Source of the DNA: Pseudobdellovibrionaceae bacterium
GTDB taxonomy: Bacteria; Bdellovibrionota; Bdellovibrionia; Bdellovibrionales; Bdellovibrionaceae
Direction of reading: 5' to 3'
DNA: 39,283 nt
Assembly: GCA_030158485.1 (NCBI GenBank)
Contig: JAOASS010000013.1
Span: 111,400 to 150,682, forward strand
In this document: piece after piece, positions 23,917 to 39,173 of the stretch
How positions within the stretch are numbered: the stretch's first letter is position 1
How the letters are laid out: every line of letters begins with the position of its first letter
Notes under the pieces: model-generated
The model's input: only the letters and a program-made list of their open reading frames with translations
What the model was told of the DNA's origin: nothing
The model's database searches: none
Made by a program: the position numbers and the translations under genes

Positions 23917-24510
23917 ATGGCTGAAACTCGCGATGTCAACACAACAAATTTTTTACTCAACTTAAAAAATGATTTTCTTTTCATCTTAGAATTTCTCAAA
24001 AATCCAATTCAAAATATTTCACACCTTCCTCATTGGACTTGGAAAAAATCTGTTCTAATCAACATTATCATTTCCGTTGCTGCGGGAACTTTGAATGGGC
24101 TGATCCCACCTAATATCTATAATATCGCATTTGGGATTATCTTCATGCCACTTATTACATTTCTATTAACACATATTTTAAGTGGATTTTTTTATTATTA
24201 TTTTCAAGTTTTTGAGAAAAGAACAGTCGACTTTTTAAACTTATTAAAAATGGTTGTTTTAGCGAATGTGCCTTTTTTGATTCTTCACAGCCTGACAAGT
24301 TTGCTGCCGCCCCTGACGCTGATTGGGCTTGCGTTTTCGGCGCTGCTTTTGATTGTCGGCCTGACTGAAAGTTTTTCACTTGATCGGAAGCGAGCCATTA
24401 AGTTGGTCAGCGTTCTTTATGTGATGGTCTTTGTTGTTTGGCTTTGGGAAAAAATAGACACCCGAAAACTGAGCCGAACTTTTTCTGCGCCTTATGAACA
24501 AATTCAGTAA
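23917..24510 (+). CDS. Yip1-like multi-pass membrane protein
   Basis: 197 residues with about five hydrophobic segments (near 47-70, 73-97, 110-135, 137-153 and 160-178). A cytoplasmic N-terminus contains LEFLKNPIQNISHLPHW, which resembles the opening of Yip1-domain proteins. The bacterial Yip1 family is of unknown function. The last residues are soluble and basic. It is a separate gene 47 bases after its neighbour and converges on flagellin across the structured gap. Confidence 0.65.
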   Translation: MAETRDVNTTNFLLNLKNDFLFILEFLKNPIQNISHLPHWTWKKSVLINIIISVAAGTLNGLIPPNIYNIAFGIIFMPLITFLLTHILSGFFYYYFQVFEKRTVDFLNLLKMVVLANVPFLILHSLTSLLPPLTLIGLAFSALLLIVGLTESFSLDRKRAIKLVSVLYVMVFVVWLWEKIDTRKLSRTFSAPYEQIQ

Positions 24511-24530: not shown

Positions 24531-24650
24531 CTAAATAAAAATTTTGTTCGAATCCTCTTTATCCATTTTCCTAAGTTCGAGGACCCAGACCTGCACTGAT
24601 CTGAGCCCTCACGGATTGGATAGTTACGGATCACGAACAATTCATTTTTA
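24531..24650. other. Long multi-stem structured element between convergent genes
   Basis: The outer stem pairs TTGTTCG (24544-24550) with CGAACAA (24634-24640) and continues as ATCC (24552-24555) with GGAT (24628-24631). A middle stem pairs TATCCA (24560-24565) with TGGATA (24617-24622). An inner stem pairs GAGG (24579-24582) with CCTC (24607-24610), and CAGA (24586-24589) with TCTG (24600-24603). T-rich or A-rich stretches flank both ends. It could be a two-way terminator, a processed RNA or a 3' stabilising structure of flagellin mRNA. No other gene lies in 24511-24663. Confidence 0.5.
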
Positions 24651-24663
24651 AATTAAAATATAA

Positions 24664-25497
24664 TTAACCAATTAGTTTCAAAGCCATCGAATTAACAGAA
24701 TTAGCTTGAGATAATGTTGCGACTCCAGACTGAAGAAGAATATTATTTCGAGTCATTTCAGAGGAAGCTTGTGCCACATCTGTATCACGAATTCGTGAAT
24801 TTGCAGCACTTAAGTTCTCATACTGATTATGTAAATTATCGACTGTTGAAGTCATGCGATTCTGAAGTGCTCCTAAATTAGAACGCATTCCATTCACATT
24901 ACTTTGAGCTTCATCAAGGACAGTGAGTGCATCTTGTGCCCCTTCTTTCGAAGAATAATCAAGATCGCTGATATCAAGACCACTCAAAGTCGCATTGTTT
25001 TCTGACGGATCCCAAGCGATGCGATTATCTTCTGCAGCTCCATAAAGGCCCACTTGAAAATCAAACGATGGGGAATCACCATTCAAAAGTTTTGTCGTAC
25101 CCCAAGTTGTGACATTGGCAATACGATCAATTTCAGATTTTAATTGCATAACTTCTTTATTTAAAAAGCCCCGCTCTTTATCTCCTACGGTATCAGAAGC
25201 TGCCTGGATCGCTAATTCACGAAGACGTGTTGAGATATTTGAAATTTCATTTAAACCACCTTCAGCAGTTTGAATCATTGAAATACCGTCATTCGCATTT
25301 CTTGCAGCTTGCATTCCTGATCTCAATTGAGATTTTAAACTCTCTGAGATCGCAAGTCCGGCAGCATCGTCCGCTGCTTTATTAATTCGGCTACCTGATG
25401 CTAACTGCGCCATACTGTTTTGAATAACACGTTGGCTGCCAATTAAGTTTCTTTGTGCATTCAGTGCCGCTACGTTTGTTGATACTCTCATTCCCAT
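24664..25497 (-). CDS. fliC: Flagellin
   Basis: 277 residues, the filament subunit. The D0/D1 N-terminus starts MRVSTNVAALNAQRNL and includes SGSRINKAADDAAGLAISE. The C-terminus has DVAQASSEMTRNNILLQSG and ends SMALKLIG. The variable middle is short (about 140-190), so the outer D2/D3 domains are nearly absent, as in the small flagellins of Bdellovibrio. I chose ATG 25497 with GGAGGA 8 bases upstream. The frame stays open to 25575 but the extra residues are not flagellin-like. It is exported by the flagellar type III apparatus. Several flagellin copies are usual in this lineage and only one is in view. Confidence 0.96.
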   Translation of the reverse strand: MGMRVSTNVAALNAQRNLIGSQRVIQNSMAQLASGSRINKAADDAAGLAISESLKSQLRSGMQAARNANDGISMIQTAEGGLNEISNISTRLRELAIQAASDTVGDKERGFLNKEVMQLKSEIDRIANVTTWGTTKLLNGDSPSFDFQVGLYGAAEDNRIAWDPSENNATLSGLDISDLDYSSKEGAQDALTVLDEAQSNVNGMRSNLGALQNRMTSTVDNLHNQYENLSAANSRIRDTDVAQASSEMTRNNILLQSGVATLSQANSVNSMALKLIG

Positions 25498-25613: not shown

Positions 25614-25640
25614 GTTTCGTCAGTCTGATCCAGTTATTTA
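25614..25640 (-). promoter_or_regulatory. Putative sigma-28 (FliA-type) promoter of flagellin
   Basis: Read on the - strand, TAAATAAC (25640-25633), 11 bases, then GACGAAAC (25621-25614). This keeps the spacing of the flagellar consensus TAAAGTTT-N11-GCCGATAA, with TAAA intact and five of eight -10 positions. The start would fall near 25607, giving a flagellin leader of about 110 bases. Confidence 0.45.
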
Positions 25641-25694
25641 CGAGACTCTGGCCTAGATTTTCAGGACAAAACGCAGATCGAGTGCTTTTCTTTT

Positions 25695-25771
25695 GTCTAG
25701 AGAATCAAGACGAGACGTGACTGGACTCGACAAGAGTCACAATCAAGACTTATCTCGAGGTCTTGCTAGAC
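25695..25771. other. Nested dyad upstream of flagellin promoter
   Basis: GTCTAG (25695-25700) pairs with CTAGAC (25766-25771), CAAGAC (25706-25711) with GTCTTG (25760-25765), CGAGA (25711-25715) with TCTCG (25753-25757) and GTGACT (25717-25722) with AGTCAC (25735-25740). The arms are collinear, so one long interrupted cruciform is possible. It lies between the dut stop and the flagellin promoter. It could be an operator, an activator site or the end of the dut transcript, but no T-run follows on the - strand. Confidence 0.45.
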
Positions 25772-25795
25772 TAAAAAAATAGAAAAAAGGATTAT

Positions 25796-26251
25796 TTAAG
25801 CTTTTCCGGTTGAGCCAAATCCGCCGGCACCACGCTCTGTGGTTCCTAATTCATCAACTAAACTAAATTCAGCAGTGATCACAGGTGCAATAACAAGTTG
25901 AGCGACGCGATCTTGATCATGAATTGTAATCGGCGTGCGACCTAAATTGATCAGTATGATTTTAACTTCTCCACGATAATCCGCATCAATAGTCCCGGGA
26001 GTATTGAGTACCGTCAAACCTTCTTTTGCAGCCCAGCCACTTCGAGGCCGTGACTGAATTTCGAAACCCAGCGGAATTTCAAAACTTAAACCCGTTGGAA
26101 TCATCACCCGTTCTCCTGGATTCAAAATTAGAGTCTGTTCAATCTGTGCTCGGACATCAAAACCACTTGCACCTAAAGATTGATACGCTGGCAATTCACC
26201 TTTAAAGTGAGCCCATTTTTTTAAAAGAACACTAATTTTATGAATGCTCAT
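25796..26251 (-). CDS. dut: dUTP diphosphatase
   Basis: 151 residues, a trimeric dUTPase that turns dUTP into dUMP and keeps uracil out of DNA. Motif 1 is ASGFDVRA, motif 2 includes PRSGWAAKEGL, motif 3 is LNTPGTIDADYRGE and motif 5 is RGAGGFGSTG at the C-terminus. I chose ATG 26251, which overlaps the protease stop as ATGA. The frame extends upstream to 26338 but that would bury it in the protease gene. Last gene of the rpsO-pnp-protease block. Confidence 0.96.
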   Translation of the reverse strand: MSIHKISVLLKKWAHFKGELPAYQSLGASGFDVRAQIEQTLILNPGERVMIPTGLSFEIPLGFEIQSRPRSGWAAKEGLTVLNTPGTIDADYRGEVKIILINLGRTPITIHDQDRVAQLVIAPVITAEFSLVDELGTTERGAGGFGSTGKA

Positions 26252-37602: not shown

Positions 37603-37657
37603 GAAAAGAAAAAAATCCAAAAGGGCTTTAAGCCGAACTGGCCTAAAACCCTTTTGG
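37603..37657 (-). terminator. Strong Rho-independent terminator of the outer-membrane protein gene
   Basis: Arms 37617-37634 and 37640-37657 pair over 18 positions with two G-U wobbles and a 5-base loop. On the - strand a long T-rich stretch follows (37616-37603). It lies between the stop of the outer-membrane protein (37681) and the start of the SurA-like gene (37568), so it should separate the two. Confidence 0.88.
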
Positions 37658-37680
37658 TAGACACCAACCACAAGTTTTTT

Positions 37681-38955
37681 TTAAAAAGCAATTTTTGCTG
37701 ATAAAGAAATCGTGTAATAATCCAAATCTTCGATCGGAGTGCGATAGCCGTACTGGCTATTGACCGCATTCTGGTAAGGACTTTGACTGATATTATCAGT
37801 GCTATAATTTCGTCGAACAATCAGGTTTTTCATGTAACGAGCATCAAAACCGACAGTCATTTTGGGACTAAATTCGATCTCAACACCGATGATACCGCCC
37901 ACATCAACTGAGTGTGATTCAGACTTATCTAAATTATAAGGTCGTTGAAAGTTTTTATCAGACCACTGAAATTCACGATAAGAGTACTGACCGACAGCTC
38001 CAAGAACTGGCTTGACCATTCCATTCAGCATGTACCATTTCGTCGAGATAGCTCCTGAGTATTGATTCACATCAAAAACATCAGGGCGCCCAGCGTATGA
38101 AAAGTTATTCACATTTTTGGCTTCGAAATTAGCATAGATAAAAGTACCTTCGACAGCAAAGTTATCATCGTACTTGTTACCAAATGTAAACCCAAGTGCG
38201 TAGTTACCTAAAATATGATCTGCTCCATCAACAACAGGCACGCCAATCATACTTGAAAAGTATTTCTGATGAACCGGAGGCACCGGCATTGAAACTGACA
38301 TTTCAGCTTCAACTTTGTCTGCAGCTTGAACTTCTTTTTCAGTTGCTATTTCAACAACCGCTTCTTCTTTTTTCTCAACAGCAGCTGGAGTTGCAGCTGG
38401 TAATGCAGATTGAGGAATAATGATAATTTGCGGAGCCGGAGCGACAGGTGAAGCCGGCACAGGAGCCGCTGATGTCGATGGCGCCACAGCTTCGGCGTTA
38501 TTTAACTTATCACCAAACAAAGCTTGAGCTCTGCGTTTTTCATCTTCTAATCGAGATTGCTCAAGCTTTTCAACAATTCTGACTTCAGTTGAAGTTTCAG
38601 CGTCTTGCCGAGCTCGACGTAAAGATTCAGCACGAGACTCCGTCAAAGGAGAAGCTTCAATAACAGTTGTTGGTTGCTTTTGAACAGCTGCTGCACTTGA
38701 AGTCGACTGTGAAGTCGCTGTTGGTGTTGCTTGGTTCAAAATATAGATAGGCTGACCTGAAACAGGCGCCTGGCTAGCTTGAGAAGCCACAGGTGCTTGG
38801 ACTTGCTCAGTCTGAGTCTGCGCTTTTGCTTCTGTCGGCTGAGTTGAATACATCTGATTCAGCTCAGTATCGACTTCGTTATCGAGGTTGGTTTGAGCGT
38901 ACCCCATGGCGGAAAGTACACTGAATACCAACACAAGTGAGAACGACTTTTTCAT
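37681..38955 (-). CDS. Outer-membrane beta-barrel protein with low-complexity N-terminal region
   Basis: About 424 residues. The signal peptide MKKSFSLVLVFSVLSAMGYA is followed by a Gln/Thr/Ala/Pro-rich region (about 20-205) with a charged helical segment near 100-145 and repeated Pro-Ala-Pro runs. The C-terminal 200 residues form an OmpA/Opa-like barrel with strands such as FAVEGTFIYANFEA and WYMLNGMVKPVLGAVGQY, ending SLSAKIAF with the terminal Phe expected for BAM insertion. I chose ATG 38955 because AAGGAG lies 8 bases ahead. The frame runs on to 39147 but the extra part is not exported-like. Specific function unknown. It is likely highly expressed, given its terminator and leader. Confidence 0.85.
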   Translation of the reverse strand: MKKSFSLVLVFSVLSAMGYAQTNLDNEVDTELNQMYSTQPTEAKAQTQTEQVQAPVASQASQAPVSGQPIYILNQATPTATSQSTSSAAAVQKQPTTVIEASPLTESRAESLRRARQDAETSTEVRIVEKLEQSRLEDEKRRAQALFGDKLNNAEAVAPSTSAAPVPASPVAPAPQIIIIPQSALPAATPAAVEKKEEAVVEIATEKEVQAADKVEAEMSVSMPVPPVHQKYFSSMIGVPVVDGADHILGNYALGFTFGNKYDDNFAVEGTFIYANFEAKNVNNFSYAGRPDVFDVNQYSGAISTKWYMLNGMVKPVLGAVGQYSYREFQWSDKNFQRPYNLDKSESHSVDVGGIIGVEIEFSPKMTVGFDARYMKNLIVRRNYSTDNISQSPYQNAVNSQYGYRTPIEDLDYYTISLSAKIAF

Positions 38956-39040
38956 AGATAAATCTCCTTGTGGCGGAATCTTCCCCTGAAGAAACCGGTT
39001 TCTGGTTTTGTGTCGCTTACACACAAGAGCATGCCTTGTG
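38956..39040 (-). promoter_or_regulatory. Structured 5' leader of the outer-membrane protein gene
   Basis: A 14-base perfect palindrome AGAAACCGGTTTCT lies at 38990-39003, and CACAAG (39022-39027) pairs with CTTGTG (39035-39040) farther upstream. Both fall in the expected untranslated leader before the AAGGAG. They may be mRNA hairpins or operators. Confidence 0.35.
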
Positions 39041-39173
39041 CCAAGATTCGGCTTTGAACAGACCAGCACTAAACCCTTAAAAAGATTAACCATCTGAAAT
39101 GTCAGAAAAATTTTACATGCCATCAAAAGTGACAAGCTCCGTGACACACCGTGAAAAAAAGAAAAGAGACTCC

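Follow-up and report, generated by a model that had tools for sequence, protein, structure and literature searches.

Bidirectional intrinsic terminators with A-tracts are an established feature of the gaps between convergent genes (PMC7566282). RNAs from the 3' ends of flagellin messages have also been described; for instance, the E. coli FliX RNA is cut from the fliC mRNA, binds Hfq, and base-pairs with its targets (PMC10578931). In Bdellovibrio bacteriovorus HD100, the attack-phase small RNA APsRNA4 (562,984-563,081, + strand) was reported as intergenic, by authors who found nothing significantly homologous to it in other genomes; Bdellovibrio attack-phase genes are under the control of FliA (PMC3627812).

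The window considered here is a stretch of 39,283 nucleotides from a Pseudobdellovibrionaceae bacterium, whose genome encodes seven flagellins. One of the flagellin genes is convergent with a gene for a Yip1-domain membrane protein, and most of the 153-nt gap between them (115 nt) is occupied by a single unbranched imperfect hairpin, located 14 nt downstream of the flagellin stop codon and 26 nt from the Yip1 stop codon. The features of the locus are as follows:

23917-24510, + strand: Yip1-domain membrane protein gene (PF04893, E 2.8e-9), convergent with the flagellin gene
24533-24543, - strand: T-rich tail 3' of the basal stem, as read from the flagellin gene, AATTTTTATTT
24536-24650, - strand: whole element, one imperfect hairpin of 43 pairs without branches
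24592-24597, - strand: terminal loop of the inner stem, 6 nt
24598-24610, - strand: inner 13-bp stem, 5' arm GAGGGCTCAGATC, partner 24579-24591, three G-U pairs
24611-24622, - strand: middle stems, 5' arms, partners 24560-24565, 24569-24571 and 24575-24576
24628-24640, - strand: basal stem, 5' arm TTGTTCGtGATCC, partner 24544-24555, 12 pairs
24641-24649, + strand: T-rich tail 3' of the basal stem, as read from the Yip1 gene, TTCATTTTT
24644-24650, - strand: outermost A/T stem, 5' arm, partner 24536-24542; its A-tract reads as a T-tract on the opposite strand
24664-25497, - strand: flagellin gene, 277 aa (PF00669, E 1.3e-36; PF00700, E 6.7e-24)
25614-25640, - strand: putative flagellin promoter, TAAA-N15-GACGAAAC, from alignment with a congener

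By the E. coli consensus, this putative promoter would be sigma-28-like, and the corresponding flagellin promoter of the congener, TAAA-N15-TCCGAAAG, has identical spacing.

On the - strand, the predicted folding energy of the element is -45.3 kcal/mol (z -7.4), with a weaker fold on the + strand (-31.6 kcal/mol, z -4.3), and on neither strand did any of 200 dinucleotide shuffles of the 120-nt stretch fold equally well. The element ranks third among GC-corrected folds in the 39-kb window, and fifth of 145 by z when isolated gene 3' ends are compared across 440 kb of its own genome, a background consisting of the window and 20 sampled 20-kb stretches. Its z is extreme, yet continuous with those of other terminators and within the terminator tail. 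There are no rival hairpins within the gap. The strand preference has a basis in the wobble pairs, as the three G-U pairs of the inner stem and the one in the basal stem all turn into A-C mismatches on the + strand, so that the fold favours the flagellin strand; this bias is a hint, but not proof, that the - strand RNA matters. The initial annotation had described collinear outer, middle and inner stems spanning most of the gap and exceeding the needs of a terminator, and both descriptions hold, with the edges it gave (24531-24650) correct to within 5 bases.

Other strong folds are present in the window. The strongest, at 1-163, is a perfect terminator-like hairpin of ~23 bp with flanking A and T tracts. 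A strong 18-bp hairpin with a T-rich tail (37604-37723, - strand, z -6.1) follows the gene at 37681-39147, and is apparently an ordinary terminator. Between the dUTPase and flagellin genes lies a long imperfect hairpin (25684-25803, - strand), the outer arms of which, GTCTAG...CTAGAC, are also kept in the congener, as is the block GTCTCGTCYTGATTCTCTRGAC.

With a probability of about 0.7, the element is a bidirectional terminator of unusual size that also stabilises 3' ends, and serves two convergent transcription units as their common 3' end. On each strand, a stable hairpin is followed by a T-rich tract (TTTTATTTAG and TCATTTTTAA), with convergent genes on either side and one T-tail per strand. 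Known bidirectional intrinsic terminators similarly lie between two stop codons, and combine a stable hairpin with two T-rich tails and a preceding A-tract (PMC7566282). The differences are ones of scale and build, as the element has 43 pairs in 115 nt where the usual stem has roughly 8-15 pairs, and is composed of three nested stem blocks. The counterpoint to a terminator is thus its length, two to three times that necessary. A hairpin followed by a tail was found by a simple scan at 23 of the 52 convergent gene ends of this genome; the element itself is absent from a generic terminator scan that allowed loops of 3-8 nucleotides and required a T-run directly after an uninterrupted stem. Flagellin genes whose products are 71-75% identical to that of the window mostly end in ordinary short hairpin and T-tract terminators soon after the stop codon, and an ordinary hairpin and T-tract terminator also follows the flagellin paralogue at C4:170501 of the same genome. 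The motif CTCCGTT precedes the terminator in 7 of 49 flanks of related flagellins (0.4 expected, with close relatives partly responsible for the excess), and its window counterpart is a degenerate ATCCGTG only.

In the mechanism that we propose, a transcript arriving from either side would fold the inner stem first, and would then zip outward into one long hairpin. The basal stem, TTGTTCG/CGAACAA, would abut a T-rich tail at the base of the hairpin, and RNA polymerase would therefore be released in both directions, with a single tract acting as the A-tract before the hairpin on one strand and as the T-tract on the opposite one. Neither the middle nor the inner stems would be required for release. 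Instead, on the strand with the stronger fold, that of flagellin, the extra stems would probably stop 3' exonucleases and keep an abundant mRNA stable; the flagellin message should be abundant because the sigma-28-like promoter is common to the congener and because of FliA attack-phase control. We infer that termination in vivo and mRNA stabilisation both occur at the element, which most likely marks the end of the flagellin and Yip1 messages. A stabilising 3' structure, one of the proposals of the initial annotation, is plausible.

Another proposal was that the hairpin is a small RNA derived from the flagellin message, for which there is a precedent in the same order. In HD100 (genome G036), in which a c-di-GMP-I riboswitch is found at the published merRNA coordinates, the start of APsRNA4 lies 30 nt past the end of a flagellin gene (stop codon at 562,954). 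Its 3' part, GGGGTCGCCCACA...CTCGTCTTAAGCCCACC, recurs with the terminator behind orthologous flagellins, in a layout consisting of a hairpin whose loop reads GCCCACA, the linker CTTAAGCCC, a terminator hairpin and a T-tract. Two loci are of particular relevance:

L188:3985-4110 (from 562,984): APsRNA4-type RNA of HD100
C9:167215-167283 (L172:12215-12283, L208): APsRNA4-type RNA of the genome studied here, behind the flagellin gene C9:166325-167149

An exact copy of the linker CTTAAGCCC is present in 26 of 36 flanks, representing several of the order's families and including a few near-duplicates, and four more have it with at most one mismatch. Because MAFFT misaligned the stems, covariation was assessed by swapping arms between species. 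Pairing between the two arms of the first hairpin proved to be species-specific, with a mean of -8.9 kcal/mol for native and -5.6 kcal/mol for swapped combinations, and 5000 permutations gave no result as favourable. Of 119 related genomes, 56 contain the pattern CCCACA-N(2-28)-CTTAAGCCC, as against ~14 matches for a reversed-pattern control, some of the long-spaced matches probably being due to chance. A relaxed Rfam search of the C9 locus was empty. Just upstream of the flagellin gene that precedes APsRNA4 lies APsRNA3 (561,854-561,981; L188:2855-2982), a position that suggests a possible flagellin leader subject to attenuation.

Other flagellin 3' flanks carry different arrangements. In the genome studied here, a second type (C9:170546 onward; L041:2332-2480; z -6.4) consists of a hairpin with a TCTCC-like loop, GGTACCAACCTACCC, and a terminator hairpin ending in GGGGTACTT, and this type is also found at L184, L070, L072, L073, L080, L086, L088 and L089. 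A third, in other Bdellovibrionota, has the order AAGATCACCCTCA ... GAGCTGAC ... GATCTGTTTCCTGCG immediately 5' of the terminator (L100:2468, L101:2503, L107:2672, L114, L115, L118, L119, L123, L090, L094 and L099), with no Rfam match for the loci tested. In five further flanks (L077, L078, L079, L084 and L087), a common hairpin, TTTTTTGGGTGGGGCGAAGACCTCCGCCCTATCCAAAAA, lies between the stop codon and the terminator.

For the window element, production of such an RNA would entail cutting of the flagellin mRNA near its stop codon, with the stable hairpin then regulating flagellar or other mRNAs. The position of APsRNA4 behind a flagellin gene, the presence of its homologue behind another flagellin of the same genome, the origin of FliX in the fliC message, and the bias toward the flagellin strand are all consistent with this scenario. 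Like APsRNA4, the element is directly behind a flagellin stop codon, belongs to the same bacterial family, and has a stable hairpin end (PMC3627812), but it lacks the GCCCACA loop, the CTTAAGCCC linker and the separate terminator, and thus every conserved motif of that RNA. A sequence model of the APsRNA4 type (R2) matches the L188 and L172/L044 loci and leaves the window element unmatched. The likeness to FliX extends to a location at the 3' end of a flagellin mRNA (PMC10578931), whereas neither Hfq nor ProQ has a match in the genome of the element (98% complete), and the element exposes no long single-stranded seed, most of its bases being paired and only the terminal loop of 6 nt and the short internal ones free. 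Given the absence of an APsRNA4 match, of Hfq or ProQ matches, and of an obvious exposed seed, and conservation that does not reach beyond the genus, a small RNA at this position is unlikely. A CsrA sponge was also considered, as CsrA is encoded in the genome, and was rejected because the predicted fold places the 3'-arm GGA triplets in stems and not in loops.

The extent of conservation is best seen in the congener, Bdellovibrionales bacterium Ga0074139 (G001; L010/L048), which belongs to the same genus and has an identical gene order with a shorter gap. Here, the gap contains a perfect hairpin of ~14 bp with a stem sequence different from that of the window element, most of the pairing in the outer and middle stems has been broken or deleted, and the 5' flank is partly alignable (TG-TCCG-AAC-TCCA). 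Covariation among relatives, suggested by the initial annotation as a check, amounts to eight pairs changed on both sides between window and congener, a count that carries little weight as it comes from two sequences in a model-fitted alignment, and is accompanied by the loss of most of the outer and middle stems. The genome search with a structure model that it also suggested did recover a relative, but went no further than the genus, as the covariance model R1, built from the window element and the congener gap, matches those two places only among 60 related genomes. No flagellin gene adjoining a Yip1 gene was found outside the genus among the loci examined, Rfam gave no match to the element at gathering or relaxed thresholds, a phage collection yielded no match, and in its own genome only AT-rich fragments resemble it. 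The suggestion of a new regulatory RNA thus finds no support. Since conservation stops at the genus, the element is better described as a lineage-specific elaboration of a 3'-end hairpin than as a conserved RNA family.

The congener hairpin has no good T-tail on either strand, and termination there may therefore need something else. This arrangement raises the possibility that the window structure, too, is a stabilising 3' stem only, shielding the message against exonucleases, with release either dependent on Rho or taking place at a site further downstream. Retention in the same place of a perfect hairpin without a T-tail, next to a 5' flank that is partly conserved while the stem has changed, would fit such a role, but in the window element each strand has a T-tail, making this explanation quite improbable. 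A mobile repeat of the MITE or REP type, or a chance palindrome without RNA function, might be suspected from the long imperfect inverted repeat and the greater length of the gap relative to that of the congener, but is very improbable in view of the single copy, the z of -7.4, the location exactly between two stop codons, and wobble pairs that are all G-U on the flagellin strand.

The window element is for the most part a known device in oversized form, and the APsRNA4-type RNA identified alongside it is the more novel finding. A broader scheme, speculative and rather doubtful, is that Bdellovibrio-like flagellin mRNAs carry paralogue-specific 3' RNAs that accumulate as attack-phase small RNAs, with the APsRNA4 type, the ACCAACCTACCC type and the window hairpin, the youngest and genus-specific, each behind a different paralogue. 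APsRNA4, reported without a known function or homologues, either forms the 3' end of a flagellin message or sits immediately after one, and RNAs of its type have a covarying structure conserved across the order, including in a genome without a findable Hfq or ProQ. The APsRNA4-type RNA thus provides a concrete handle on how these predators might use the ends of flagellin mRNAs as regulators.
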